In this document: positions 3,001 to 64,000 of the stretch, piece by piece | Position numbering within the stretch: position 1 is the first letter of the stretch | Layout: the number at the start of each line of letters is the position of its first letter | Source: Bombella intestini | Lineage (GTDB): Bacteria; Pseudomonadota; Alphaproteobacteria; Acetobacterales; Acetobacteraceae | NCBI RefSeq assembly: GCF_002003665.1 | Contig: NZ_JATM01000003.1 | Coordinates: 1 to 64,000, forward strand | Direction of reading: 5' to 3' | DNA: 64,000 nt | Position numbers and translations under genes: made by a program | Notes under the pieces: model-generated | What the model saw: only the letters and a program-made list of their open reading frames with translations | Databases searched by the model: none | Told to the model about the DNA's origin: nothing

Positions 3001-5050
3001 CCAGTGCAAGAGTGGCGCCGTTATTGATTGCCGTGTTGCCGGTGTAAGTCTGTGCCCCTGTTAGGGTTTCCGTTCCACCATTGACGGTCAGGCCACCATT
3101 GCCCGAGAGGATACCACTGTAGGTGTTTTGGGCATTGTTAAGAGTCAGCGTGCCATTCAGCGTGCCGTTGCTGCTTCCAGCAAGGGAGGTAGCATTGGCA
3201 CTGTTGCTGGTAACAGTCAGGTCTGCGCCGTTATGGGTGAGGGTACCGTTGATGGTGCTGCCATCAAGCTTCAGGGTTCCCGTGCTTGTATTTGTGACAT
3301 CACCGTTTGTTGTGTTTCCACCGGCGAGGGTCATGGTGCCACTGTTTGTAGCGGAAGCCTGAGAGCCACCCGTAGCGTTGAAGGTTGCTCCTGCAGCGTT
3401 AGTGACATCACCGGTCTTGCTGCTTGTGAGTGTTGACTGACCACTGTTGTTCAGAGCGTTGCTGAGCGTGGCGTTAGAGGCATTGAGTGTGCCGCTATTG
3501 GTCACTACGCCAGTGACGGAGGAGCTATTCTGAAGGGTGGCCGTACCCTTATTGTTTAGAATCCCGGCGATGGTGCCGCCACTAAGCGTCAGGGCGCCCT
3601 TTCTTGTGTTAGTGACATCACCATTGGTCGTGCTGTTTGTGAGAGTGGTCGTACCCGTATTGTTCAGGGCGCTGCCGAGTGTGGTGTTAGAGGCATTGAG
3701 TGTGCCGCTATTGGTCACTACGCCAGTGACGGAGGAGCTATTCTGAAGGGTGGCCTTACCACTATTGTTCAGAACCCCGGCAATGGAGCTGCCATCAAGC
3801 GTCAGGGTTCCCTGATCCTTATTGATGATCTGACCGTTTGTTGTGTTTCCACCGGTGAGGGTCATGGTGCCGCTGTTTGCTGCGGAGGCCTGAGAGCCTC
3901 CTGCGGCATTGAAGGTTGCTCCTTCGGCGTTGGTGACATCACCGGCCTTGCTGCCTGTGAGCGTGGCCTGACCATTGTTGGTCAGAGTATTGCTGAGCGT
4001 GGCGTTAGAGGTATTGAGTGCGCCGCTATTGGTCACTACGCCAGTGACGGAGGAGCTATTCTGAAGGGTGGCCTTACCACTATTGTTCAGAACCCCGGCA
4101 ATGGAGCTGCCATCAAGCGTCAGGGTTCCCTGATCCTTATTGATGATCTGACTGTTTGTTGTGTTTCCACCGGTGAGGGTCATGGTGCCACTGTTTGCTG
4201 CGGAGGCCTGAGAACCACCTGTGGCGTTGAAGGTTGCTCCTTCGGCGTTGGTGACATCACCGGCCTTGCTGCCTGTGAGCGTGGCCTGACCATTGTTGGT
4301 CAGAGCATTGCTGAGCGTGGCGTTTGTGGCATTGAATGTGCCGTTATTGGCGACATTACCAGCGATGGAGCCGGTGAGGTCTAGGCCTGCCTTTTGAGCA
4401 ACGGTTGTATCGCCCGTGTAGCTATTCTGTCCGCTGAGGGTTTTGACGCCACCAGTGATGTTCAGTCCCCCTGTGCCAGAAATGACACCAGAATAGGGGT
4501 TGCTGGATTGGGCGGAAGACAGAGTAAGGCCATTGGCCCCGAGGACGGTATTACCTACGCCAGAAATATCCTGAACAGTTACACCGGAATTGGCTTTACT
4601 TATGTCGAAATTAGCATTCTGTTCTATAGAAATACCACTGGAGCTGGCGATGCTACCATCACCAGAGAGGGCCAAAGTGCCCTGTTTGATGAGTGTTGCC
4701 CCTGTATAGCTATTGATGGCGGAAAGAAGTGTCGTCCCCTGACCTGCCTGCTCTACGGAAAGAGGGGCATTATTCTCGCCGTTTGTAATGGGGTCTGTAA
4801 TTGGATCGCTTGTTACGCCAGCCGCCGGAGAGAATGTCCGTACAAGGCTGCCCTGCTGGGACGAGGATGTGCTCTCCGAGCGTGCAGGTGCGCTGATGAT
4901 AGAGAAGGACGAGACACCCGCCAGAAGCAGCGCAATCCGGGCCGACAGCTTGAGGGGTGAAGCGTTTCTGCTTTTATAAGCCAGAATTGAATCAGAACCT
5001 GCCTGTGTGAAAGATGCTGGCTTTTTATATGAAGAGTTGTGTTGTGTCAT
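1..5050 (-). CDS. Giant autotransporter-type adhesin, N-terminal part (runs off left edge)
   Basis: The minus-strand frame stays in phase from an ATG at 5050 to base 1, giving at least 1,683 codons with no C-terminus in the window. An SD-like GAAAGGTG lies about 10 nt upstream of the ATG. The protein starts with a 35-residue hydrophilic stretch followed by a signal-like core (KLSARIALLLAGVSSFS) ending near APARS. The passenger is low-complexity and rich in Gly, Thr, Asn and Ser. It repeats the beta-strand motif of autotransporters (SGQNSYTGDTTV, GTLTLDGSS, SSVTGVVTNSGAL), which is known to fold as a beta-helix at the cell surface. Cysteines are essentially absent. No beta-barrel is visible because the 3' end is missing, so 'autotransporter' is inferred from the repeats. 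Shorter plus-strand frames across this region are antisense shadows. A role in adhesion or biofilm is family-based inference. Confidence 0.85.
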   Translation of the reverse strand, partial: MTQHNSSYKKPASFTQAGSDSILAYKSRNASPLKLSARIALLLAGVSSFSIISAPARSESTSSSQQGSLVRTFSPAAGVTSDPITDPITNGENNAPLSVEQAGQGTTLLSAINSYTGATLIKQGTLALSGDGSIASSSGISIEQNANFDISKANSGVTVQDISGVGNTVLGANGLTLSSAQSSNPYSGVISGTGGLNITGGVKTLSGQNSYTGDTTVAQKAGLDLTGSIAGNVANNGTFNATNATLSNALTNNGQATLTGSKAGDVTNAEGATFNATGGSQASAANSGTMTLTGGNTTNSQIINKDQGTLTLDGSSIAGVLNNSGKATLQNSSSVTGVVTNSGALNTSNATLSNTLTNNGQATLTGSKAGDVTNAEGATFNAAGGSQASAANSGTMTLTGGNTTNGQIINKDQGTLTLDGSSIAGVLNNSGKATLQNSSSVTGVVTNSGTLNASNTTLGSALNNTGTTTLTNSTTNGDVTNTRKGALTLSGGTIAGILNNKGTATLQNSSSVTGVVTNSGTLNASNATLSNALNNSGQSTLTSSKTGDVTNAAGATFNATGGSQASATNSGTMTLAGGNTTNGDVTNTSTGTLKLDGSTINGTLTHNGADLTVTSNSANATSLAGSSNGTLNGTLTLNNAQNTYSGILSGNGGLTVNGGTETLTGAQTYTGNTAINNGATLALAGNGNLEKSTILLNVGNVTGQSTLDISKATHEVSIANMGWGNNNATVNLGGNTLNIASAIGSNGAIFQGDGGTLIISGTSQALNGTIRQTPVDSETNSDGTTSGGTTTSKDTTKGVNLVANATDVTLNEGKSFSYTGSTTVNSGSNLHVNGNNYGTSSVVVHDGGKLDGTGNIGSTSSTTTIEQNGTITPGTSDLHRGTLGIGGNLIVNGTSDFSGVQDNGSGKLSNGTVFVGSETNGNLTLGGTVKAVDLSFQQGSGVQTLYRYTQQLTLDNPTLKMYQTTGAEDPNNKSVLQAGNHQVNLVAANTGDNLTFWNGSTTTANNQVNGGDGTWTQGQTNWTTSNGDKSAAWQQNAYAIFGQASDSALQQNSKHAFKVTVAGNVDVGGMQFSQTTRPSSYSVIPQDENSSITLHGTRYTDKDSPNQLNHYFSVTDNTGQSGTPSDADIKQYEQNNGILVNKSGLVSIVRVGDGTGYGDTNLAVINTSIKDDPSNPTTLVKTDTGTLILNGTNSYTGGTVITNGTLGITSDASLGDQKGALNINGGTLRIEQDQVSTNANRNTILGSNGATIDLNGYEYSNNGSIVGPKGANLKIVSPILDRSTYDQTNKTPANPTLTQLFNTAQQNAGIALGGEKPVLNLNGNNTYLGNTDIEGNHTSGATNIVVNANSSTPFGYSDSTTQGGDLNITGGATVNMNGGQDQSASMGNRNVTVGDNSSTYPQDHSVLNFNNKSVADTAHITNNSNASVVFRDSSSASQSTIQNAGSVVFAGHATADAATIQNNSDSANVDISGTTNGVSIGSLSGNGSVSLGKQTLTIGALNKNDTLSATIQDGGSGGSLIKTGTGTQTLTGANSYTGSTTVQNGTLALANNGTIASSSFVDIKQGANLDLSQSSNNQNLSDIRGGGNVALGSHSLSLTTADPDHSYDGIISGTGGLTIQSGTKTLTNKQAYTGDTTVAQNGGLNLAGSLAGALANSGQTTLQDGSSVAGNVTNKDKGTLTLD
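3704..4339 (-). repeat. Two tandem 318-bp in-frame repeats inside the adhesin
   Basis: The segment beginning GCCGCTATTGGTCACTACG at 3704 recurs at 4022, and a diverged copy starts at 4340. The period of 318 bp equals 106 codons, so the repeats stay in frame. The two copies differ at only scattered positions. An earlier copy of the same start at 3491 lies 213 bp (71 codons) before 3704, also a multiple of three. Such near-identical blocks suggest recent duplication and potential for length variation by recombination. Confidence 0.85.
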
Positions 5051-5490
5051 TGTGGGTGCACCTTTCACATACGTTGCTTGCCGGTCGCCCGGAGCGAATG
5101 ATGAAGCCGACAGGGAATAGAGAGGACATCGTGCCTGAAGACGCTAATTTACCGTTCATTAATAAAAAGATCAAAAGAAATCAAGATGTAGCTCAGGTAA
5201 ATCCGATCAACTTTTTGAGCATTAGTATTTATTTTGTATATTAATGAACTTATCTACGAATGATGAGAAATAAACGAGTGTCCATTAAGTCAATTAATTA
5301 CAAAAATTAACTATTTTATATTTATTTTTACAATTTTTATTGTATTTAATATATTATTATTTTACCGTTTTTTAAACAAAATGTAATGAAATGTCCTGTC
5401 TGGTTGTAGCAATCTTCAGTTGCTTCTTAATGTTCGGTTTGATGTATGTTTCTCACCTATTGGAATATTTAACCCTGATGGGAGGGGGCT
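5051..5490. promoter_or_regulatory. 440-bp AT-rich divergent spacer
   Basis: This gap separates the minus-strand adhesin from the plus-strand hydrolase. The stretch from about 5140 to 5390 is extremely AT-rich, with long runs of A, T and TATT, unlike the GC-richer surroundings. I see no convincing ORF or RNA in it. AT-rich DNA of this kind is typical of promoter regions bound by xenogeneic silencers such as MucR/Ros-type proteins in alphaproteobacteria; that role is inference. I could not pick a single convincing -35/-10 pair for the adhesin. Confidence 0.5.
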
Positions 5491-6081
5491 GTGGCTGCTA
5501 TCAACCGTGGACAAGCTGGAACGGTTTTCATCTTCATGGATTTTCAGAATTATATTCTGGAAAATTTTCTACCGCCTGAAAGGGCCGAACAGGTCGTAAA
5601 GCAGGCTGAAGCTGTTCTTGCAGCGGCTCGGAAGGCGGGATGTTTTATCATCCATGTGGCGGTGTGTTTCCGGCCAGGGTATCCGGAAATCAACGGGCGG
5701 AACAAGATGTTCTCGTGGATACGGGATAGTAACATGGCGGATCCTAGCAGCCGTGGAATCGCCTTTGTCGATAGGATGGCACCGCAACCGGAAGAACCCG
5801 TTGTGCAGAAACGGCGTGTTGGTGCTTTTGGCAGTACGGACCTCGACATGATCCTGCGGGCCAAAGGTATTGAGAAGGTTTTTCTAGCCGGGGTTGCTAC
5901 GTCACATGTTGTTTTGACGACATTTAATCAAGCGTTTGATCTCGATTATGACCTTACAGTCATTCATGATGCTTGCGCCGATGGTGATGAAACGGCACAT
6001 GTCTTTTTGACGGAAACATTCTTCCCCAAGCTGGGCAATGTCCTGTCGTCCCGTGACGTGCTGGCCTTTTTGGAAGGTTGA
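5491..6081 (+). CDS. Isochorismatase-family hydrolase lacking the nucleophilic Cys
   Basis: A 196-aa single-domain protein of the isochorismatase/nicotinamidase fold. The start is GTG at 5491, preceded by a strong GGGAGGGGG SD at 5479-5488; the next ATG (Met16) would remove the first beta strand. Asp17 in FMDFQN and Lys107 in VVQKRRVGAF match two of the three conserved catalytic residues. The third position, normally Cys in a GxxTxxC motif, reads GVATSHVV with Val140. Family members without Cys, such as isochorismatases, hydrolyse vinyl ethers rather than amides, so a nicotinamidase call is not supported. The substrate is unknown. It is oriented toward the convergent LysR gene; the neighbouring keto-acid decarboxylase hints at aromatic metabolism, which is inference only. 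Confidence 0.8.
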   Translation: MAAINRGQAGTVFIFMDFQNYILENFLPPERAEQVVKQAEAVLAAARKAGCFIIHVAVCFRPGYPEINGRNKMFSWIRDSNMADPSSRGIAFVDRMAPQPEEPVVQKRRVGAFGSTDLDMILRAKGIEKVFLAGVATSHVVLTTFNQAFDLDYDLTVIHDACADGDETAHVFLTETFFPKLGNVLSSRDVLAFLEG

Positions 6082-6103
6082 CGAAGCCTGTGTCCGGGTA
6101 GGG

Positions 6104-6991
6104 TTAGGGCGTACTGGTTTGCAGCCAGGCTTCTTCGGCTTTGTTCAGGGGGCTGTTGCGGCGGACAGCGAGTGAAATGGTGATGCGGATGGTCGGGTCC
6201 TGCAATGGGCAGCAGTACAGCCCGTCATTCTGGGCTGGATTGTGGAAGGCTGCCGGAATGATGGTGATGCCGACCCCCGCCTGAACCATAGTCAGTAGGA
6301 GGGTTGTGTCGCCCGTACGCCCGGTAACATGGGGTGTAGCCCCATGGCTGGCAAAGGCCTCCGAGATGAAACGGTTTATTTTGAAGTTCTCATTCATGAG
6401 GACGAGCTTCTCATCCAGAATGTCCGTGAAGGAGCAGCTCTCCCGGCCTGTGAGCGGGTGTGAGTTGGCCATCAGCAGGCAGAGTTCTGCTTCTGCAAAG
6501 GGGATGGTGCGCAATTGCCTGTTCTGGACAGGCCCTATGAGGGCGGCGATGTTCGTGTGATGGCCGAGAAGTTGGGTCACCAGCCTGTCGGAGGGATGTT
6601 CCTCAATGTTCAGCACGACATCGGGATAAAGGCTGCAAAATTGCCGGATGATGGGACGGAAATAGATTGCCCCCAGTATGGGCGGGAGTGCCAAATGGAC
6701 CGTCCCCTTTAGGGGGCCTGAATCATCCGCCATGGCCCGGTGAAGATTCTGCTCGGCCTCTAGCAGACGCTCAGCATGGAGAAAGAAGGTCTTTCCCTTC
6801 TCTGTGAGGGTAACAGTCTTATGAGTCCGCTCGAAAAGGCGGACGTCTAGTTTGTTTTCCAGAGAGCGTATGCCCATGCTCAGGGAAGGCTGACTGATGT
6901 GCAGCTGATCACTCGCACGGCTGAAGCTGCCCTGTGTGGCAACGGCCATGAAGTAGTGAAGTTCTCGGAGGGTTAGCTGGGGGTATGGCAT
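6104..6991 (-). CDS. LysR-family transcriptional regulator
   Basis: A 295-aa regulator when started at ATG 6991 (MPYPQLTLRELHYF). A longer frame starts at 7033 but adds an atypical hydrophobic leader and has no better SD. The N-terminal winged HTH covers residues about 7-65, with the recognition region SFSRASDQLHISQPSLS. The rest is a LysR substrate-binding domain (PPILGAIYFRPIIRQF; VQAGVGITIIP). It is transcribed divergently from the keto-acid decarboxylase at 7104, the classic arrangement of a LysR regulator and its target. A TTCTATATAGAA palindrome lies between them. The inducer is unknown. Confidence 0.9.
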   Translation of the reverse strand: MPYPQLTLRELHYFMAVATQGSFSRASDQLHISQPSLSMGIRSLENKLDVRLFERTHKTVTLTEKGKTFFLHAERLLEAEQNLHRAMADDSGPLKGTVHLALPPILGAIYFRPIIRQFCSLYPDVVLNIEEHPSDRLVTQLLGHHTNIAALIGPVQNRQLRTIPFAEAELCLLMANSHPLTGRESCSFTDILDEKLVLMNENFKINRFISEAFASHGATPHVTGRTGDTTLLLTMVQAGVGITIIPAAFHNPAQNDGLYCCPLQDPTIRITISLAVRRNSPLNKAEEAWLQTSTP

Positions 6992-7006
6992 AGGGAAAAG
7001 GCTATA

Positions 7007-7018
7007 TTCTATATAGAA
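7007..7018. promoter_or_regulatory. Palindrome TTCTATATAGAA, candidate LysR operator
   Basis: A perfect 12-bp inverted repeat sits between the LysR start (6991) and the decarboxylase start (7104), inside a very AT-rich stretch. With the next base it fits the loose T-N11-A pattern of LysR binding sites. Binding is inferred from position and symmetry only. Confidence 0.4.
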
Positions 7019-7103
7019 ATATAATATTATCATATTGAAGATAGGCTGGATAGGCTTTCCTCAGAGGCACGAACTGACGTGCTAATGATGAAAGGAGCGG
7101 ACG

Positions 7104-8741
7104 ATGGCAAAGGTTGTCGATTATCTTCTGGATCAGCTTTCTCGGCTTGGTGTGGAGCATGTTTTTGGTGTCCCGGGTGATTATGCCTTTCCGATTAATG
7201 ACGCCATTACGGCTAGGGCGGACATGCGTTGGATTGGCTGTTCCAATGAACTGAATGCCGCTTATGCGGCTGATGGCTATGCCCGCATACGGGGGATTGC
7301 GGCCCTTAACACGACCTATGGCGTTGGCGAGTTGAGTGCTATGAACGGTGTTGCCGGTGCATATGCGGAGCATCTGCCGGTGATCCATCTGGTCGGTCTG
7401 CCCAAGCGGGCCGTTTTGGATGAAAAGCGGCTTGTGCATCATACCCTAGGTAATGGGCAGACTACGGCCTTTTATGATGCTGCCGGTCATGTTGTTTGTG
7501 CCCGCACCATTCTGGACGGTCAGAACTGCGTGCAGGAGCTGGAGCGTGTTCTGGCCACGCTGCACCGGGAGCGGCGGCCGATTTATATCGGTATCCCGTT
7601 TGATGCGGCCCATGATGACGTAGTCATGCCTGATGGTGACATCCCCCTCCCGGAAGAGCAGAGCGGGAAACAAGCTGCCATTGTGGCACAGCGCATCATG
7701 GTCGAGCTGGAGCGCAGCGAGTCTCCTTGTGTCCTGCCGGGTATTCTGACAGCTCGGTTTGGCTGCCGGGAGGCGATGAGGCGGTTCCTCAGCCGTTCCG
7801 GCCTGCCCCATGCCACCATGTTCATGGATAAAGCTGTGGTGGATGAACAGGCTGAAGGGTTTGTGGGGATGTATGGCGGGCATCTCGTGCAGGAAGATGT
7901 CGCTGAATTTGTGGAGCAGGCTGACCTTGTCCTGACGCTGGGTGCTGAAATGACGGATTTCAATACCGGACTTTTCACCCAGAAGCTGAACCCGGAACGC
8001 ATTATTAGCGTCATGGAGCATGAGGTGCGCTTTGGTAACAGTGCCTTTTATGCTGTCGAGCTGGCTGATGTGATTGAAGCTCTTGCCGATCTGGCTGATA
8101 CCGTGTCCTGTTCTGCTGGCCCTGGTTATTTGGGGACGGAACTACCTCCCCGGCAGGCTGATGAAGAGGATGATGGGGTGATCAGAACCCACACCTTCTA
8201 TGCCGCTATACGGGATCATCTCCGTGCCGGGGATATTGTCGTGAGCGAAACGGGGACGGTCGCTATGGGCATGGGTTTTGTCCGTCTGCCCGCAGGGGTC
8301 GATTATGAGGAGCAGAGCCTGTGGGGCTCCATTGGTTGGGCTACGCCAGCGGCGTTCGGCATGGCCATTGCAGCCCCTCACAGACGGATCATCCTGCTGA
8401 CCGGTGAGGGATCACATCAGCTGACGGTACAGGCCCTCGGTGAGTTTGCCCGCTTTGATTGCCATCCGCTCATTCTTGTCCTGAATAATGAGGGTTACTT
8501 GATCGAGCGTCTGCTTTGTGATGACGGGGAACGTTATTACAATGACATTGCCAGCTGGGACTATACGGCTCTGGCTCGTGGGTTCGGTGGTAAGGACTGG
8601 CAATGCGAGCGCATCAGCACGCCAAAGGCATTGCGTCAGGCGTTGGACGCTGTCAGGCCGGGTCAGGGTACTTATCTGGAGGTTGCCGCACCCCGTTATG
8701 ATGCTCCCACCATGGCTGAAGCTCTGGCTGAGAAGCAGTAA
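7104..8741 (+). CDS. TPP-dependent 2-keto-acid decarboxylase (pyruvate/indolepyruvate type)
   Basis: A 545-aa cytosolic enzyme, the usual length for the PDC/IpdC/KdcA family, which removes CO2 from 2-keto acids to give aldehydes. AAAGGAGCG precedes the ATG. Visible hallmarks are VFGVPGDYAFP near residue 20, the cofactor-activating Glu49 in SNELNAAYAADGYAR, the His112-His113 pair in HHTLGNG, and a C-terminal TPP/Mg motif from about residue 434 (GEGSHQLT ... VLNNEGYLIE). The motif begins GEG rather than the common GDG. The NNEGY form recalls indolepyruvate and branched-chain decarboxylases, but substrate cannot be assigned from sequence alone. Acetic acid bacteria use pyruvate decarboxylases in lactate and pyruvate oxidation, so that role is also possible. 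It is probably controlled by the divergent LysR regulator. Confidence 0.88.
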   Translation: MAKVVDYLLDQLSRLGVEHVFGVPGDYAFPINDAITARADMRWIGCSNELNAAYAADGYARIRGIAALNTTYGVGELSAMNGVAGAYAEHLPVIHLVGLPKRAVLDEKRLVHHTLGNGQTTAFYDAAGHVVCARTILDGQNCVQELERVLATLHRERRPIYIGIPFDAAHDDVVMPDGDIPLPEEQSGKQAAIVAQRIMVELERSESPCVLPGILTARFGCREAMRRFLSRSGLPHATMFMDKAVVDEQAEGFVGMYGGHLVQEDVAEFVEQADLVLTLGAEMTDFNTGLFTQKLNPERIISVMEHEVRFGNSAFYAVELADVIEALADLADTVSCSAGPGYLGTELPPRQADEEDDGVIRTHTFYAAIRDHLRAGDIVVSETGTVAMGMGFVRLPAGVDYEEQSLWGSIGWATPAAFGMAIAAPHRRIILLTGEGSHQLTVQALGEFARFDCHPLILVLNNEGYLIERLLCDDGERYYNDIASWDYTALARGFGGKDWQCERISTPKALRQALDAVRPGQGTYLEVAAPRYDAPTMAEALAEKQ

Positions 8742-8760
8742 GATCGCGTTCTGAAAACCG

Positions 8761-8791
8761 GATGGGCAGGTGCACTTTGTGTCTGCCCATC
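8761..8791 (+). terminator. Hairpin after the decarboxylase gene
   Basis: GATGGGCAG (8761-8769) pairs perfectly with CTGCCCATC (8783-8791), giving a 9-bp stem and a 13-nt loop starting 19 nt after the stop. No T-run follows, so it may be a rho-independent remnant or an mRNA-stabilising 3' hairpin rather than a full terminator. Confidence 0.45.
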
Positions 8792-8870
8792 AAGGGGGAG
8801 AACAGCACGGTAAGATGATGTGCAGGAGATGCCTGTTAGGCCAGATGATTCAGATTTTCTATGAAATGTC

Positions 8871-8946
8871 TGGCGTCCCGTACGGGATTCGAACCCGTGT
8901 TGCCGCCGTGAGAGGGCGGTGTCCTAGGCCTCTAGACGAACGGGAC
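8871..8946 (-). tRNA. tRNA-Glu (anticodon CTC)
   Basis: On the minus strand a complete cloverleaf of 76 nt can be read, including an encoded CCA end. The acceptor stem is GTCCCGT/ACGGGAC, and the T-arm contains GGTTCGAATCC. The anticodon stem CCGCC/GGCGG encloses the loop CTCTCAC, giving anticodon CTC, which reads GAG. The sequence closely follows the standard bacterial tRNA-Glu consensus. Confidence 0.95.
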
Positions 8947-9011
8947 TAAAGGCGTGAGGCCTTCGTAGAGGGAATGTTGCAGAAGTGCAAGAGGAAAAGC
9001 GGGTCTTTTGT

Positions 9012-9044
9012 AAAAAAAGCCTCCATGAAAGGAGGCTTTTTTTT
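9012..9044 (-). terminator. Bidirectional intrinsic terminator
   Basis: GCCTCC (9019-9024) pairs with GGAGGC (9031-9036). The stem is flanked by seven A on one side and eight T on the other, so it can act in both directions. It lies 15 nt past the stop of the HIT gene and would end the minus-strand his operon before the tRNA. Confidence 0.85.
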
Positions 9045-9058
9045 AGTTGGGTTGGTTT

Positions 9059-9439
9059 TTACCGGTTGGAGGGCAGAACAGGCCCGAGCGGGCGGCCACC
9101 TAGAAGATGCACATGGAAGTGCGGAACTTCCTGCCCTCCATCGGGGCCAAGATTGCTGACGAGGCGGAAGCCGCTGGGGATGAGCGATTGCTCGGCAGAA
9201 ATTTTATCCACGAGCTTCCAGAAATCCAGAATCTCCTCATCACTGGCACGAGAGAGGAAATCGTGCAGGTCCGTATAGGCCCCGCGAGGGATCACCAGAA
9301 CATGGATGGGGGCCAGAGGAGAAATGTCGTAGAAAGCAAAAGAATGTTTGCTGTCGCAGACACGTTCGGCAGGGATTTCTCCCCGCAGGATCTTGGCGAA
9401 AACATTGTTGGGATCGTAGGCGGGGGTGGGTGTCGGCAT
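9059..9439 (-). CDS. HIT-family nucleotide-binding protein
   Basis: A 126-aa protein with the histidine-triad signature HFHVH near the C-terminus (VPHFHVHLLGG). The family hydrolyses phosphoramidate bonds of nucleotide derivatives such as AMP-lysine. The chosen ATG at 9439 has a strong GAGGAGG SD about 10 nt upstream; an in-frame upstream start at 9517 adds an unrelated Pro-rich leader and is less likely. It is the last gene of the minus-strand his cluster, 91 bp after hisE, and is followed directly by an intrinsic terminator. Co-location with his genes is common in alphaproteobacteria, but the link to histidine synthesis is not understood. Confidence 0.9.
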   Translation of the reverse strand: MPTPTPAYDPNNVFAKILRGEIPAERVCDSKHSFAFYDISPLAPIHVLVIPRGAYTDLHDFLSRASDEEILDFWKLVDKISAEQSLIPSGFRLVSNLGPDGGQEVPHFHVHLLGGRPLGPVLPSNR

Positions 9440-54829: not shown

Positions 54830-55249
54830 TCAGACCATTTTTGTCGGCGGCATCTCATTAGCCACCTGTGTGACCAGGTCCCCATAAGGGTTCTGGCCAT
54901 TCTCAAAGAGGATGATGGCGTTCATCATGCTCTCAATAAGGCGAGGGTTTGGCTGCCCAAGCCGGTCGTCTGGCTCTGTTCCTAGGGCGTGCGCCACGCC
55001 CCGGATGTAGGCGGCGGTATTGTTCTCGGTCGGCGGTGCCCATTTGCTGATGATGCCCGCCACCGTGTCGATTCCGTCCCGCACGATGTAGCGGGTGAGC
55101 TGGTCACGCAGGGCCTCAAGTCCCGCCTCAGCGGTGGGGAAGCGAGCAAAGCGGGCATTAGGCCCGGGTTCCAGAACGGCCCCGGCCTGATGAGCGAAAT
55201 TGAGGTTGCCCGGATTGTTGTTGCGGATGCCACGGGGTGGGGCGGACAT
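54830..55249 (-). CDS. Phage lysozyme-like/structural protein (RGIRNNNPGN family), probable endolysin
   Basis: A 139-aa protein with the motif GIRNNNPGNLNF near its start and FARFPTAEAGLEALRDQL, DTVAGIISKWAPPTENNTAAYI and ILFENGQNPYGD further on. This family occurs in phages as peptidoglycan-degrading lysins or virion-associated transglycosylases (P5-like). It has no signal peptide, so release would need a holin. Upstream by 2 bp is the coiled-coil TM protein, downstream a terminator. Confidence 0.75.
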   Translation of the reverse strand: MSAPPRGIRNNNPGNLNFAHQAGAVLEPGPNARFARFPTAEAGLEALRDQLTRYIVRDGIDTVAGIISKWAPPTENNTAAYIRGVAHALGTEPDDRLGQPNPRLIESMMNAIILFENGQNPYGDLVTQVANEMPPTKMV

Positions 55250-58671: not shown

Positions 58672-59894
58672 GCCACCACCTGCACGCTGATTGTATCAGC
58701 CGTCACGGTGGGAAGCTGGTTGATGGGCAGGGTGATGCGGTTCTGTCCAGCGTTCCGATCAGTGCCGATGGTCAGGGTCAGCACCTCTGCCCAGTCGCCC
58801 AGCCCATCCACCACAGCCGAAAGGCGAGAGGCATAGAGGGTCTTGCCCAGCCTGATCCGGTTTTCCCCGGTCGTCAGATACGCCACGATGGCTTGCTGAA
58901 TAAGCTGCGCCGCATTGGAAGGCACGGCATCCGAGGCCGCAATCTCCATGACTACATAAACAGCTACCGGGGTGGGGCGGTCATAGTGGAAGGAGTAGGA
59001 CGGCTGGTTGCCCACATAGACGGGGTTGGTGTCCTGCACGGTGACAATCTGTGTCCCGATGGTGGGGATGCCGGGGGGTTTTTTGTTGAGGATTGCCCGC
59101 CCAATATCCGCCGGGTTCCCACCCTCGACAAGGATGTATTGAGACCCCGCCGGGATGGTCACACCCTGTTGGATGGTGTCTGCCTGTGATGGATTGTCCG
59201 TCACAAAGGCATCCGTCACGCCGGGAAGTTCCAGAAGTGCGCCCATGAGGGAAGCGTTCTGCCCAATGCTGTTGGCCGCCACGCTAGCTTGACGCCGTGC
59301 CTCAAAATCCGCACGGGTTTCGGTATCGGTCCCTGTGGCACCGGGGGCCGCATTGGTGAGGGATGCTATCCCAAGGCCTGCCTGATAGAGCGTCAAGCTG
59401 TTGGCAGGGCAGGTGATGGCCCCGGCTGTCTGGCAGGCAAGCTCGAGGCTGGCCATGCCAGACTGTGGCAGCGTGATGGCCTGCGGAGCCACATACATGT
59501 TGCCATCGTTGCCCTGCGCTACGACTGTTCCCGCCGTGATGGTCTGGCCGGGGGCGTTCACGCTGGCTTGCACCGTAACGGTCGTGGCCGTGGCGGGGCG
59601 GCGTTCCATAAAGTAGATGCGCCCGATGGCTTCCTGCATCCGGCCAGAGGATGATGCCGGGTCCACACCATTGAATATGGCGATCATCGCCCCCAGAAAG
59701 TCGCCCAGAATGGCGGTTTCTGATAGGGCGATCTGCCCTTGTGGGGTGGATAGGGCAGTGTTGGCCCCGCCACCTAGAGCGGCGTTCATGTCGGCCAGCA
59801 CCCCGGCAAGAATGTCTTGCTCGGAAGGAGCGGTGAAGCCCGCATCGGTGAGGGAGGGGGCTGGGACATTGGTCGTGGCGTCAGAACTGGGCAT
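58668..59894 (-). CDS. Baseplate J/gp47-family protein
   Basis: A 408-aa baseplate wedge protein. ATG 59894 has GGGAG 9 nt upstream and is preferred to 59909. The family is seen in VDPASSSGRMQEAIGRIYFMERRPATAT, in GTDTETRADFEARRQASVAANSIG, and in the central ITAGTVVAQG beta region. It overlaps gp46 by 14 bp, as is usual for the Mu gp46-gp47 pair. It supports a contractile-tail (myovirus-like) element. Confidence 0.9.
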   Translation of the reverse strand: MPSSDATTNVPAPSLTDAGFTAPSEQDILAGVLADMNAALGGGANTALSTPQGQIALSETAILGDFLGAMIAIFNGVDPASSSGRMQEAIGRIYFMERRPATATTVTVQASVNAPGQTITAGTVVAQGNDGNMYVAPQAITLPQSGMASLELACQTAGAITCPANSLTLYQAGLGIASLTNAAPGATGTDTETRADFEARRQASVAANSIGQNASLMGALLELPGVTDAFVTDNPSQADTIQQGVTIPAGSQYILVEGGNPADIGRAILNKKPPGIPTIGTQIVTVQDTNPVYVGNQPSYSFHYDRPTPVAVYVVMEIAASDAVPSNAAQLIQQAIVAYLTTGENRIRLGKTLYASRLSAVVDGLGDWAEVLTLTIGTDRNAGQNRITLPINQLPTVTADTISVQVVA

Positions 59895-60231
59895 AGTCCG
59901 TGCTCCCATCGCTAAAGGTTACGAGAATGACGCCGGTTAGTTGGCGGTCTTTGGTGGGATTGGCGAGGTGACAGGTTGCCGCTGCCACGCCGGGAACGGA
60001 CATGGCGGCATCCTCGATCTCCGAAGAATAGAAGGAGAGGTCCACGTCCGAGCGGAGAATGTCCGTGTCGTAAGGGATGCCCTGCCCAGTGTCGTAGAGC
60101 ACCTCGCCTAGCCATGTGCGGGCGGCGGAGCATACGTCTTGCAGGATGGCCGCCTTGTCCGTCAGCACGACCAGATTGCCGGTGCTGTCCAGTGTCAGAT
60201 CCCAGTCAGGGGTGAGGGAGAGGGTTTTCAT
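59881..60231 (-). CDS. Baseplate gp46-family protein
   Basis: A 116-aa protein of the Mu gp46/GPW-gp25-like class. DWDLTLDSTGNLVVLTDKAAILQDVCSAARTWLGEV, GQGIPYDTDIL and VPGVAAATC are family features. Its gene is followed by gp47 with an overlap and normally preceded by the spike gene; here a plus-strand secreted-protein gene is inserted between the two. Confidence 0.87.
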   Translation of the reverse strand: MKTLSLTPDWDLTLDSTGNLVVLTDKAAILQDVCSAARTWLGEVLYDTGQGIPYDTDILRSDVDLSFYSSEIEDAAMSVPGVAAATCHLANPTKDRQLTGVILVTFSDGSTDYAQF

Positions 60232-60275
60232 CGGATTGACTCTAAGGTAGCGTGCTGTGGATGGAGGAATTTTAT

Positions 60276-60692
60276 ATGAAGAAACACCTACTCACCGCCG
60301 CCGCTGCTGTGTTGGGACTGGCAGGAACGGCTTGGGCAGGCGCTTTGGAAGAAGCGGCCAAGCATGATCCTGCGTTAGCCGCCGCTATTAAAGAAGCCAA
60401 AGAGGATGGGAGCTACGGGCACGCCTACCAAGCCAGTAAAGATGATGTGGAAGCTGCGGCGGCACGCTTGCAAGCGGAGGGTGAAATCCACCTTCGTAAG
60501 ATGGGCATGTCTCCTGACACAGCACGAAAAGCCTCTTGGGCGGCGCAAAACAAGCCGGGAAGTGCATGTACCAGATATGTTCATCAGCTTCTTGCTGACT
60601 ATGATAGCGGGGCCGACCGGGGAGGGTACGATGAAGACCTTGTGGTCTCTATCGAACACTCTGGCACTTGCGAGCGTAAGAACCTCGATTAA
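60276..60692 (+). CDS. Secreted Cys-pair protein A, opposite strand within the tail cluster
   Basis: A 138-aa exported protein from ATG 60276 with GGAGG 9 nt upstream. The signal peptide is KKHLLTAAAAVLGLAGTAWA. The mature part is helical with a conserved C-terminal block: HLRKMGMSPDTARKASWAA, SACTRYVHQLLADYD and VVSIEHSGTCERKNLD, whose two Cys can pair. It is oriented against the tail genes and shares a 4-bp TTAA overlap with the spike gene stop. It is a clear paralogue of the protein at 61379. Function is unknown; export suggests an envelope role in the lysogen. Confidence 0.8.
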   Translation: MKKHLLTAAAAVLGLAGTAWAGALEEAAKHDPALAAAIKEAKEDGSYGHAYQASKDDVEAAAARLQAEGEIHLRKMGMSPDTARKASWAAQNKPGSACTRYVHQLLADYDSGADRGGYDEDLVVSIEHSGTCERKNLD

Positions 60693-61318
60693 GAAGGTGG
60701 TGCGGTTCTGCTACCCCCGGACTGCACACCTCCATGCGTATGCTGTTTGAGCGAGACGCCGCCTGCCTTTACATCGCCGCTGGTCTCAATGTCGCAGTTT
60801 GCCGTGATTTTTGTGGCTTCGATTGAGACCTCCCCCGGCGTCACAATGCGCCATCCTCCATCTGTGGCCTGAATGAATTGGTCCGGCCCGTTGTTGAGGA
60901 AGCCACCTACATACACGCAGTCCTGCATGGCGAATTGCCGGAACGAGGCAGGGGCAGAGGGCCGCCGTGTGGTGACGGCATGTGTATGATCCCGGCCAGA
61001 AATGACGATGAAGCCAATGTCGCCCGGCTTGGGGTCGATGATGAGGGCAGACGTACCGCCCTGGATGCGGAGATAGGGGACATTGTGTATGATCTGGCGA
61101 GGGTGGGGCTTGCCCTGTTTGTCCTGCTGGTGGACCATCGGCTGCACATCCACCATGCCAGTGATGGAGGCCTGCCCAGCGTGTACCGCCTTCACCTGCA
61201 CCAACATGGAGGGGCCGATCTTGCGGATATGGTCCTGAATCCGTCCGTTTATGATCGTGGAGATGTCGAGGTTGGGGCTGGACCGGTTCCAGTAAGGTGC
61301 GTTGGTGTTTTCTGTCAT
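60689..61318 (-). CDS. Gp138-type baseplate spike protein, intact copy
   Basis: A 209-aa spike from ATG 61318 with AGGGGAA 6 nt upstream. The N-terminal OB-like domain (MLVQVKAVHAGQASITGMVDVQPMVHQ; PKPGDIGFIVISGRDHTHAV) matches the Gp138 N-terminal domain. The C-terminal half is a beta-helix (SIEATKITANCDIETSGDVKAGG), ending in the metal-binding tip SLKQHTHGG. It pierces the outer membrane in contractile tails. A C-terminal near-copy is at 61822 and a second gene starts beyond the right edge at 63603. Confidence 0.87.
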   Translation of the reverse strand: MTENTNAPYWNRSSPNLDISTIINGRIQDHIRKIGPSMLVQVKAVHAGQASITGMVDVQPMVHQQDKQGKPHPRQIIHNVPYLRIQGGTSALIIDPKPGDIGFIVISGRDHTHAVTTRRPSAPASFRQFAMQDCVYVGGFLNNGPDQFIQATDGGWRIVTPGEVSIEATKITANCDIETSGDVKAGGVSLKQHTHGGVQSGGSRTAPPS

Positions 61319-61378
61319 GGGGCTTCCCCTCAGTTGCTCTGATGGCTTAGATGGACGCACACATCACGGGAGATGACC

Positions 61379-61825
61379 ATGAAACACTTCCTCCTTCTCA
61401 CAGTCGCCTTTATTGGGCTGTCTGGCGCGGCTTGGGCTGATGACGCACAGAGAGCACTCGCCAAGTCTATGGGCGTTCCCGAGAGCTGGCTTAAAACCGG
61501 ATTCTCCTGCGGGGCTAAGGGGTGTTCTCAATTAGACCCAAAAGACGACATTAATAATTCAGCAGAGGTGCAGGAGGCGAGGCGCATAGCTGACGCTCGC
61601 CTGTCCGCTGAAACAGAAGTGCATCTTCGCCAGATGGGCATGTCCCCGGGCACTGCTCGTAAGGCTGTATGGGCCGCAAGGCACAAGCCAAACTCGGCCT
61701 GCGCCTATTGGGTGCGCCAGCTCACAGCAGATTACGACAACGGCCTTGATCGCCCTGATTATGACGACAAGCTCGTGATCTCAGTCGAACACTCGGGGAC
61801 ATGCGAGAAGAAGAACCTCGATTAA
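61379..61825 (+). CDS. Secreted Cys-pair protein B (paralogue of A)
   Basis: A 148-aa exported protein from ATG 61379, with GGGAG 6 nt upstream. Signal: FLLLTVAFIGLSGAAWA. The C-terminal block repeats protein A almost word for word: HLRQMGMSPGTARKAVWAA, SACAYWVRQLTADYD and VISVEHSGTCEKKNLD. It has an extra CGAKGC motif after the signal. Its stop shares the same TTAA overlap with the decayed spike copy as protein A shares with the intact one. It starts 60 bp from the divergent spike start. Confidence 0.8.
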   Translation: MKHFLLLTVAFIGLSGAAWADDAQRALAKSMGVPESWLKTGFSCGAKGCSQLDPKDDINNSAEVQEARRIADARLSAETEVHLRQMGMSPGTARKAVWAARHKPNSACAYWVRQLTADYDNGLDRPDYDDKLVISVEHSGTCEKKNLD

Positions 61826-62020
61826 GAAGGTAGTTTCGTCTTCCCCTCGTCATGCGTGTGCTGTTTTAGCGATACATGCTCTGCAGTCCGTTGCCTGAAT
61901 GAACGGCTCCCGCCCGTTATTGACTCCCCCACATACACGCAGTCCTCCATAGAAAGCTGACGGAATGAGGCTGGAGGAGAGATAGGCTCTTCCGCAGGCT
62001 TGTGGAGTATGGTTTTCATT
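61822..62020 (-). pseudogene. Decayed second spike gene
   Basis: Read on the minus strand, one frame gives PPASFRQLSMEDCVYVGE and, at the end, VSLKQHTHDEGKTKLPS. A second frame carries GGVNNGREPFIQATD. These match successive parts of the intact spike (APASFRQFAMQDCVYVGG, FLNNGPDQFIQATD, VSLKQHTHGG). The copy has lost about 130 N-terminal residues, has a frameshift after CVYVG, and lacks about 45 residues of the beta-helix. The HTH tip and stop position are kept. Confidence 0.8.
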
Positions 62021-62117
62021 ATAGAGCCTGATGGTACAAGGTTCAGTCGTCAGATTCGGTGCCCATTCCCAACGAGGTGGGAGCCGCCATTTTTCAGGAA
62101 AGAATAGGAATAGGGGC

Positions 62118-62453
62118 ATGAAACATCTGGTGCTGTTTGCCGTTTTTGCGCTGGCTTTGTCCGGTACGGCACGGGCCGAGGCTATCTATCTGAGGAATGA
62201 GGATGGGTCTTTCACCATTGATCCCCCCAAGGCTGATGAATTCCTGCATAAGGCCTATTCCAATAAGCGGATTGCCGATAACGCCTATGACGTATTGGTC
62301 AATAAAAGGCGAGGTAATTGCTATGATGCGGTGATTCACTTGTTGAGATATTTTGATGATGGACCGGGTAACGTGCCGAAATATTGTTACAAGCCCGATT
62401 TGGCTAGTGATGATACAATTACGGACCACCCAGAAGGGATGAAAATGCCCTGA
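62118..62453 (+). CDS. Secreted protein C, distant Cys-pair family member
   Basis: A 111-aa exported protein from ATG 62118 (AGGAATAGGGG upstream) with the signal HLVLFAVFALALSGTARA. The mature part contains RGNCYDAVIHLLRYFDDG, comparable to SACTRYVHQLLADYDSG of protein A, followed by a second Cys in PKYCYKPD. It ends acidic (DITDHPEG-like). Similarity to A and B is weaker, so paralogy is inference. The longer frame from 62031 lacks an SD. Confidence 0.65.
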   Translation: MKHLVLFAVFALALSGTARAEAIYLRNEDGSFTIDPPKADEFLHKAYSNKRIADNAYDVLVNKRRGNCYDAVIHLLRYFDDGPGNVPKYCYKPDLASDDTITDHPEGMKMP

Positions 62454-62575
62454 GGGCAACACTCAGCCACAAAATTGTCAGACTGCCAGCCCTACATGCT
62501 GGAGCCAGATTGGAGAGGGGGACGGTATGCGCTACCGTTTCCACTTTTTGAGGCATAATGCGGGAACCTTGCTTT

Positions 62576-62944
62576 ATGAAACATGTTCTTTTTGTAGTTG
62601 TAGCTGCTGCTGTATGGGTCGGAGTGGCCAATGCAGATGAACTAAGCCATATGCCGGAAGTCAAAGGAACTTTGTCTCAGGCTTTGCATAGTGCCAGAGT
62701 GGAGAGCCATCAGGCATCAAACCAGCAGGAAAAGTTGACGGATGAAGAGAATTTGCGCCGTATTGGGCTTTCTGCCGAGACGGTAAGGGATGGCCTGTGG
62801 GCTGTTGCTCATCGCCCTCATTCCCCTTGTGCCCAGTATATTCGCCAGTTAACAGCGGACGCAAAGGGCAACTCAGCTGCTCTGTTACAGAGTGACCAGC
62901 GGTTGGTTGTCTATGTTGAAAATTCTGGAATCTGTGAACGGTAA
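62576..62944 (+). CDS. Secreted Cys-pair protein D
   Basis: A 122-aa exported protein from ATG 62576 with the signal KHVLFVVVAAAVWVGVANA. The C-terminal block again follows proteins A and B: NLRRIGLSAETVRDGLWAVAH, SPCAQYIRQLTADAKGN and VVYVENSGICER, with the two Cys kept. The N-terminal linker is Gln/Ser-rich. The SD is weak (GGGAA). It is a third clear member of the family in this cluster. Confidence 0.72.
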   Translation: MKHVLFVVVAAAVWVGVANADELSHMPEVKGTLSQALHSARVESHQASNQQEKLTDEENLRRIGLSAETVRDGLWAVAHRPHSPCAQYIRQLTADAKGNSAALLQSDQRLVVYVENSGICER

Positions 62945-63025
62945 GATCTGGCCAGCGGCTTTACCCGGTAGGGGTGGCCCGTTACCCTGTCCTTTTATTC
63001 TGGCAGGATGAGGGAAAGGAAAGTG

Positions 63026-63598
63026 ATGATGCGGAAAACATTATGCATGACGGGCCTGAGCCTGATGCTGCTGGGTGGTGGTCTGAAATCGGCATGGGCA
63101 CAAGCCCCGCTGGAAGTGTCACAGGATGGAACAGTGACAACCAATGGCGTGGCGGCGGTTGGTGTTTCTCCTAATGGCGGCCAGCGTCTGGGGCAGACTG
63201 GCAAATGGCAGACGTTGGAATTGGACCATACGCTGACAGCGCTTTTGGCAGAGAAAGATGTTCTGTTTTCCATTTCGCCACGCCGGGGTGGAGATGTGTT
63301 CATCATGTTCGTTCTCAAGGGGCACGAAGTCCCTCAGCCGGGTTTGACCATTCATTTCTCCAACGGGTATGAGGTGAAAGGCTTCCATTATACTGGCACG
63401 ATCAATCGTGGCTCGCAGTGGGGAGGCTACATTTCCGAGATGGAAGGTCGTGCCTTGTTTGATGCTCTGTCAGCTAGTAATTCCGTGAGCATGTCATGGG
63501 CAGGGGGTGCTGGTCATATTGATTATGACCGTGGCAGCGAGTTCGTGCATGAGCTGGAACAGACTGCCGCACATGGGCATATGCCGTTCCCGAAATGA
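63026..63598 (+). CDS. Secreted beta-rich protein E in the spike cluster
   Basis: A 190-aa exported protein with AAAGGA 7-8 nt before ATG 63026; the signal is LCMTGLSLMLLGGGLKSAWA. The mature part is beta-rich (DVLFSISPRRGGDVFIMFVLKG; LTIHFSNGYEVKGFHYTG) and has no Cys pair, so it is unrelated to A-D by eye. It sits in the same position, as a plus-strand gene whose end faces a spike-gene end (gap 4 bp). It slightly recalls IalB-like periplasmic proteins, but I would not assign it. Confidence 0.7.
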   Translation: MMRKTLCMTGLSLMLLGGGLKSAWAQAPLEVSQDGTVTTNGVAAVGVSPNGGQRLGQTGKWQTLELDHTLTALLAEKDVLFSISPRRGGDVFIMFVLKGHEVPQPGLTIHFSNGYEVKGFHYTGTINRGSQWGGYISEMEGRALFDALSASNSVSMSWAGGAGHIDYDRGSEFVHELEQTAAHGHMPFPK

Positions 63599-63602
63599 TG
63601 CC

Positions 63603-64000
63603 TTATTGCGGGGGTGCGCTAGCCCCCGCTCCAGTCTGAACCCCGCCATGGACATGCTGTTTTAACGAAATGCCACCTGCGCGGACATCGCCAGAAGTAG
63701 TAATGTCGCAGTTGGCTTCAATGTGGCTGGCTTCTATGGTGACAGAACCCGGTGTCACGATCCTCCAGCCGTGGTCCGTAGCCTGAATGAACTGGTCGGG
63801 CCCGTTATTGAGGAAGCCTCCTACATAGACACAATCTTGCATAGAAAATTGCCGGAATGAGGCAGGCGGGGCGGGCTTACGGGTTGTAACGGCATGTGTA
63901 TGGTCCCGCCCTGAGATAATGATGAAACCTATATCCCCCGGTTTGGGGTCGATGATGAGAGCCGAGCTTCCGCCCTGTATGCGTAGATAGGGTACATTAT
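63603..64000 (-). CDS. Third Gp138-type spike gene, C-terminal part (runs off right edge)
   Basis: The minus-strand frame is open from the stop at 63603 to the window edge. It reads NVPYLRIQGGSSALIIDPKP, then GRDHTHAVTTRKPAPPASFR, MQDCVYVGGFLNNGPDQFIQ and the tip SLKQHVHGGVQTG, nearly matching the intact spike over 130 residues. It is clearly a full-length paralogue as far as visible, with HVHGG in place of HTHGG. Its N-terminus lies outside the window. Confidence 0.85.
   Translation of the reverse strand, partial: NVPYLRIQGGSSALIIDPKPGDIGFIIISGRDHTHAVTTRKPAPPASFRQFSMQDCVYVGGFLNNGPDQFIQATDHGWRIVTPGSVTIEASHIEANCDITTSGDVRAGGISLKQHVHGGVQTGAGASAPPQ

Follow-up and report, generated by a model that had tools for sequence, protein, structure and literature searches.

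Why would a prophage tail cluster hold several copies of its spike gene, each facing a small exported gene on the opposite strand? We investigated this question in Bombella intestini, at the end of a 64,000-nucleotide (nt) window (assembly GCF_002003665.1, contig NZ_JATM01000003.1, positions 1 to 64,000; "the window" denotes this whole stretch), where a prophage tail operon lies on the minus strand and extends past the window end. Between the hub gene gpD and the baseplate wedge gene gp46, this operon holds two complete spike genes and a decayed one, together with five plus-strand genes for exported proteins, here termed secA to secE. Sequence comparisons suggest that the sec genes may well be lysogenic-conversion genes in a cargo (moron) slot of a contractile-type-tail prophage, at its tail-tip end, most likely acting in periplasmic superinfection exclusion, and that the second spike probably arrived by recombination as a module of another phage type instead of arising by copying in place.

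Organization of the slot

Read from right to left, the order is hub gpD, SPIKE3, secE/secD/secC, the decayed spike, secB, SPIKE1, secA, gp46 and gpJ, with all sec genes on the plus strand. The features are as follows (aa, amino acids).

59881..60231, minus strand: gp46/gp25-like gene for a baseplate wedge protein, bounding the slot on the left (match to phrog_120, baseplate wedge subunit, E 3.4e-21)
60276..60692, plus strand: secA, exported protein of the secB family; AxA-type signal peptide read by eye
60689..61318, minus strand: SPIKE1, intact spike of 209 aa with GpV Apex motif (E 6.1e-7); probably an acquired module
61373..61825, plus strand: secB, exported protein of the secA family with a hypervariable centre
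61822..62019, minus strand: decayed spike, a leftover frame of 65 aa; by tblastn it matches spike residues 121-152 (the SPIKE1 match continues to 195)
62118..62453, plus strand: secC, small exported protein, adjoining secD and secE in the relatives that carry it
62576..62944, plus strand: secD, exported protein of the secA/secB family (by BLAST)
63026..63598, plus strand: secE, exported protein with an IalB-like fold in structure prediction
63603..64232 (window ends at 64000), minus strand: SPIKE3, intact spike of 209 aa beside hub gpD (Apex E 1.6e-5); probable native spike

An earlier note on this stretch had described three minus-strand spike copies (intact, decayed, intact), each paired tail-to-tail with a plus-strand exported gene. 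Both the copies and the pairing were confirmed, as three convergent pairs; the count of exported genes was incomplete, as secC and secD bring the plus-strand genes to five. The secA/SPIKE1 pair and the secB/decayed spike pair each overlap by 4 nt, with TTAA supplying both stop codons, and secE ends at 63598, 4 nt from the convergent SPIKE3. The common context reported for the first two junctions was likewise recovered: CCTCGATTAAGAAGGT occurs with zero mismatches at 60683 and 61816, 1,133 bp apart, with no further occurrence in the window at up to 2 mismatches and 0 in 100 shuffles. The first (5') 232 bases of SPIKE3 lie beyond the window end, where the contig continues and completes the gene at 64232 (L003:5603-6232; compared loci are numbered with L, genomes with G). 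An assembly artefact, which the earlier note had allowed for, is unlikely, because the contig continues and because B. favorum shares the gene order from SPIKE1 to gpD, without secA, at high DNA identity.

Both complete spikes fall within the GpV/gp45/Gp138-like spike family, with Apex above the cut-off in each; PF18352, which we take to be the Gp138 spike domain, modelled the N-terminal part below its cut-off (22.6 for SPIKE1 and 18.8 for SPIKE3 vs 26.1). Pfam detected no lysozyme domain in either spike.

The slot fits the definition of a moron site, in which a gene is inserted between phage genes that are contiguous in relatives. We mapped 21 loci of 3.3-3.6 kb in other genomes with a spike gene; in 16 of them the hub, spike and gp46-like genes are consecutive, with no opposite-strand gene of at least 80 aa between them. 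The remaining five differ: in L014 and L028 no gp46-like gene is seen, in L015 the spike is followed by other genes, L018 carries a spike fragment with a sec gene, and in L023 an opposite-strand gene adjoins the spike.

The exported proteins and their tail partners

BLAST placed secA, secB and secD in one family, with a common C-terminal region in which two cysteines were invariant in the alignments made. secC had no BLAST match to these three and is, by eye, at most a distant member, and the predicted fold of secE differs from theirs. Each of secA to secE has a single hydrophobic N-terminal stretch (by eye).

Of the 299 genomes sampled from the order, 17 matched a family profile; 11 of these belong to the window's genus, counting the window's own genome, and genus members without a match may be among genomes not listed. 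Searched alone, secB matched in 12 of 249 family genomes and secE in 6 of 249, all of the latter in the window's genus, and secB had zero matches among 50,697 phage records at E 0.01. The family is recurrent in Bombella and also present in at least one Saccharibacter prophage. The same genome holds two further sec relatives (G000:C6:270816-271184 and G000:C5:107166-108011), the second of which sits between tail-gene pieces. Longer sec relatives (L078 7337-7960, L083 7166-8011, L127 8409-9158) were considered for a possible TonB-like C-terminal domain, which was rejected: Pfam stayed below cut-off in L078 and L127 and gave no match in L083.

In 48 of 59 cases, a run of sec-type genes converges on a tail-gene 3' end, which belongs to spike, hub gpD, tapeN or tp. 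Convergence by itself is weak evidence: wherever cargo is inserted into an operon on the opposite strand, it will face the 3' end of one gene or another. Partners matched without their 5' part are more telling, and this is the case in 22 of the 48 partnered runs (counted by hand; a match qualified if its start lay past the first 20% of the partner). Near-duplicate prophages (L087, L089, probably L126) are among the sources of the 59 runs, two of which sit at contig ends (L071 10160 and L131). Short frames matching only the over-extended start of reference secL069 were excluded (for example L064 792-1010, L086 8432-8767 and window 60116-60250), and the sec hits in G127 and at G264:C1:9-218 were left out of the loci compared. 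G101 carries four tandem [sec + hub] units at 80-87% DNA identity, three of them 5'-truncated, and more tandem units, with matching pieces 80-97% identical, were found in L117, L120, L121 and L122.

Hypervariability between conserved ends

Two sec subfamilies are strongly variable between conserved ends. L087 and L089 are at least 95% identical in each 60-nt step of 2601-9260 except 7341-8600, within which the hub stub end is 85-90%, the sec gene 35-85% (7521-7880) and SPIKE1 88-100% identical. Between the window and B. favorum, DNA identity in secB is 28-63% over 61430-61729, whereas the 60-nt steps in the rest of 61250-65269 are 85-100% identical save two (75% and 77%), which fall at the end of secB and within the decayed spike. 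secB is a mosaic, since near-identity to L090 (97-100%) is confined to 61461-61580, against 47-87% over the remaining gene. In a sec type of 355 aa, median identity among 11 copies is 93-100% at nt 29-388, 46-83% at nt 389-685 and 55-92% from there to the gene end; in the hub 3' end downstream (+34 to +192) it is 84-93%, with a minimum of 32% where stubs are short. Among 12 copies of this type, median synonymous divergence (dS) rises from 0.069 in the first third of the alignment to 0.569 over the remainder. The pattern, to which constraint could contribute, fits exchange through conserved arms.

Possible link to lysogeny

In five relatives (L064, L065, L075, L086 and L119), an Arc/RHH-like gene precedes the sec gene with a 4-nt overlap, and each of these loci encodes a Bro-N antirepressor-type protein within about 2 kb; the RHH match in L064 is below the Pfam cut-off. 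Identity between L064 and L086 is 47-55% over most of the RHH gene but 98-100% in the sec gene. The overlap in these five relatives suggests expression of sec in the lysogen.

Furthermore, eight open sec frames sit beside hub stubs in L072, L117, L121 and L122, and a secC-D-E trio sits beside a spike stub in L066; beyond the stubs no other tail query matched in these five loci, which were checked with tail queries only. A tRNA gene is present in each of the five. Separately, a tRNA-Cys region near tolC-like and valS-like genes (named by eye) bears sec genes in L072, L117, L122, L079 and L080, and its presence in the window's genus and in another genus suggests a shared prophage attachment site.

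Origin of the second spike

SPIKE1 and SPIKE3, which are 71% identical, match the spikes of two different phage types. Bombella phage type A combines SPIKE3 with secE/secD/secC (L068, L069); L071 and L120 have the same set, but with a more distant hub and additional sec genes. Type B combines another hub type, gpD', with a SPIKE1-type spike (L064, L065, L086), and the sole spike of these loci is 79-88% identical to SPIKE1. Prophages with two spikes look like joints of the two types. Three of them retain a hub stub, namely the near-identical L087 and L089, and L090. The order in L087 and L089 is gpD-SPIKE3-secE/D/C, debris (pieces of a spike, another exported gene and an RHH gene), a 3' stub of gpD' (aa 260-350, 89-93% identical), sec, SPIKE1 and gp46; that in L090 is gpD, a third spike type, sec, a gpD' stub (aa 303-350, 81% identical), secB, SPIKE1, a shortened sec and gp46. 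In the window and in B. favorum, the decayed spike occupies the position of the hub stub.

The idea that in-place copying alone produced the second spike was set aside, as SPIKE1 has its matches in another phage type and three related prophages carry hub stubs at the joint. The earlier note had proposed that a unit was copied as a block; tandem block duplication does occur in relatives (G101, L117, L120, L121 and L122), but the second spike here most likely came by recombination with another phage type. Between the window and B. favorum, dS is 0.62 for SPIKE1, about three times the 0.15-0.21 of gp46, gpJ, gpD and SPIKE3. An extra spike copy can decay: the B. favorum SPIKE1 has unrelated residues in place of its last 13, and in L069 only 26 codons match the extra spike.

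Comparison with known systems

Among the papers listed in our literature search, no title or abstract opening described this layout, which is no proof of absence, unlisted papers and most subscription papers being outside its reach.

Phage P22 follows a repressor/antirepressor logic with Arc, Mnt and Ant, and its sieA region is named immI. Genes 16 and 9 flank P22 sieA, which has been cloned along with mnt (PMC10883804). The likeness lies in an exclusion gene between late genes, matched in the relatives studied here by the Arc/RHH-like gene overlapping sec and the nearby Bro-N antirepressor. In contrast, the sec proteins have signal-peptide-like starts and no SieA family match was found, in searches that included no direct comparison with SieA: instead of a multi-span inner-membrane protein, secA to secE each show one N-terminal hydrophobic stretch by eye, with no Pfam match. 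T4 Spackle is a periplasmic helical inhibitor of the lysozyme domain of the tail spike (PMC7677548), and resembles the sec proteins as a small exported helical protein with a cysteine pair. No sequence or fold match to it was detected, and no Spackle was among the matches listed by Foldseek, VIA and the PDB profile search, for a secB model of moderate confidence. The setting differs in that Pfam shows no lysozyme domain in SPIKE1 or SPIKE3 and in that Spackle is an early lytic gene.

Orphan Rhs toxin/immunity modules are truncated copies of a conserved gene with a small gene, lying downstream and able to recombine through shared sequence (PMC3967940). Truncated conserved-gene copies, each with a small gene, occur here as well, but no toxin domain was seen, the copies are of an opposite-strand tail-tip gene, and the variation lies in the exported protein itself. 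Twelve spikes aligned through their C-terminal ends with no variable domain there, and so do not show the polymorphic C-terminal toxin on a large gene that marks Rhs/CDI orphans; hub C-termini were compared only in part.

A comparison for the cargo is Acetobacter phage phiAO1 (LC644971; PMC8566455), in which an opposite-strand catalase gene lies directly downstream of the spike and ahead of a baseplate J-like gene (L101 8799-10922). Its cargo gene thus occupies the same place as sec, but encodes a catalase, and the record has a single spike match and no sec match. In B. favorum, a SocA_Panacea-domain gene (L067 11167-11631; Pfam E 3e-20), possibly toxin-antitoxin cargo, lies between the altered SPIKE1 and gp46. 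The predicted structure of secE has the fold of the IalB family (solved structure 3dtd), but its sequence falls outside that family, with no Pfam match up to E 1 and only two antibody chains in a PDB profile search up to E 1.

Proposed role and alternatives

These comparisons support the earlier view of an exported opposite-strand cargo that resembles lysogenic conversion, is recurrently tied to spikes and moves in blocks; superinfection exclusion, also put forward there, is the most likely role by inference. In the mechanism we favor, recombination would have joined two spike modules, and the sec proteins would be produced during lysogeny (jointly with an Arc/RHH-like repressor in some relatives), reach the periplasm and block the entry of related phages, that is, superinfection exclusion by lysogenic conversion. 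Tail-gene ends would serve as homology arms for the exchange of sec variants, and the extra spike, which need not be the target, would be a passenger or a spare. On the incoming particle, the hub, the spike and a lysozyme-like tail protein are among the candidate targets. A more elaborate version, which we regard as doubtful, is a polymorphic phage-exclusion system of variable exported cassettes, using the constant 5' part and the tail-gene 3' end as arms, with variants tuned to the arriving tail-tip allele, arrayed, and domesticated near tRNA genes by insect symbionts.

Several results weigh against the exclusion mechanism. The function ascribed to the sec proteins is read throughout from sequence: Pfam had no match for secA to secE, PADLOC assigned them to no known defence family apart from a chance-level match for secC, PHROG gave only weak matches to families of unknown function, and structure searches with the secB model (predicted local distance difference test, pLDDT, 72.8) returned no convincing fold. 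No repressor or antirepressor gene was seen in the window slot, and no sigma-70-type promoter site was found at 59800-64000, where 2.5 are expected by chance. Convergence is partly forced by geometry, and 11 of the 59 runs have no tail partner. Conserved ends could reflect constraint instead of exchange. The ratio of nonsynonymous to synonymous divergence (dN/dS) gave no sign of positive selection in secA/secB or the 355-aa type, and values of at most 0.35 in secA/secB pairs (dS saturated in some) speak against ongoing diversifying selection; hypervariability does not extend to secC, secD and secE (dN/dS 0.06-0.16 once a single pair with saturated dS is set aside). SPIKE1 has been under constraint, with dN/dS of 0.11-0.17 between the window and five relatives (0.02-0.08 for SPIKE3, against four), which is unexpected of a passenger but may predate the duplication. 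Likewise, the truncated hub copies in G101 (dN/dS 0.10-0.14) look constrained for mere homology arms; this may predate truncation or mean that the copies still matter.

Because the slot accepts diverse genes, as the catalase of phiAO1 and the SocA_Panacea gene of B. favorum indicate, a host-fitness role is possible, though we consider it rather unlikely. The sec proteins would then give periplasmic protection against insect lysozyme or antimicrobial peptides, or against envelope stress, comparable with the phiAO1 catalase in its spike-adjacent place. The predicted IalB-like fold of secE, the presence of sec genes where only tail stubs were detected, and the life of Bombella as insect symbionts (PMC9147383) agree with such cargo, whereas the hypervariability of secA/secB and the phage-type repressor coupling in relatives fit phage-phage conflict better, and sec genes recur in prophage tail clusters. 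An improbable alternative is spike or hub immunity, in which each exported protein binds and blocks the opposite tail-tip allele, so that selection would act on the pairs jointly and truncated pairs would correspond to the orphan units of Rhs loci. It would account for a tail partner retained even as a stub, for the identical joint in two pairs, for SPIKE1 and secB diverging together beyond their flanks, for the stub-plus-sec arrays, and for the constrained look of the G101 hub copies. However, a single family ends against spike, hub, tapeN or tp, which does not support the earlier note's view that the partner is specifically a spike variant; many stubs lack most of the protein to be recognized, and the 12 aligned spikes have no toxin-like polymorphic C-terminal domain. 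Nor did sec distances clearly track the spike: the Mantel correlation was r 0.52 (p 0.07) for sec and spike vs r 0.39 (p 0.07) for a control tail gene, with r 0.55 (p 0.04) between spike and control, in a weak test (n = 7), and spike-sec coadaptation was not retained.

We give the least credence to neutral debris, that is, plus-strand genes and spike copies left over from repeated phage recombination that have kept no role. It is true that decayed spikes and stubs are common, and that the B. favorum SPIKE1 has lost its own last 13 residues, but the low dN/dS of secC to secE, the ratios in the 355-aa type (0.14-0.51, median 0.34; 65 usable of 66 pairs) and the sec frames that stay open where other tail genes were not found all argue for a retained role.

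As a moron or exclusion gene, sec is of a known kind; its diversification and its anchoring on tail-gene ends are unusual. An exported family with no Pfam match here bears marks of phage-phage conflict: repressor coupling, hypervariability, tandem amplification, and persistence where little tail remains. Exchange through the duplicated ends of conserved tail genes would be a simple route to moron diversification, and a tail gene that looks "duplicated" in a prophage may be the trace of acquired cargo and not a new tail function.

Additional observations

The lysozyme-like protein (our own label) is encoded by a separate gene in the window (54830-55249), and relatives of it lie inside a long protein at the tape-measure position in L073 5321-7228 (Saccharibacter) and L075 8781-10910; Pfam assigned no family to the window protein or to the L073 relative. 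Within the presumed tape measure gene, L003 8721-8981 consists of three 87-nt tandem repeats.

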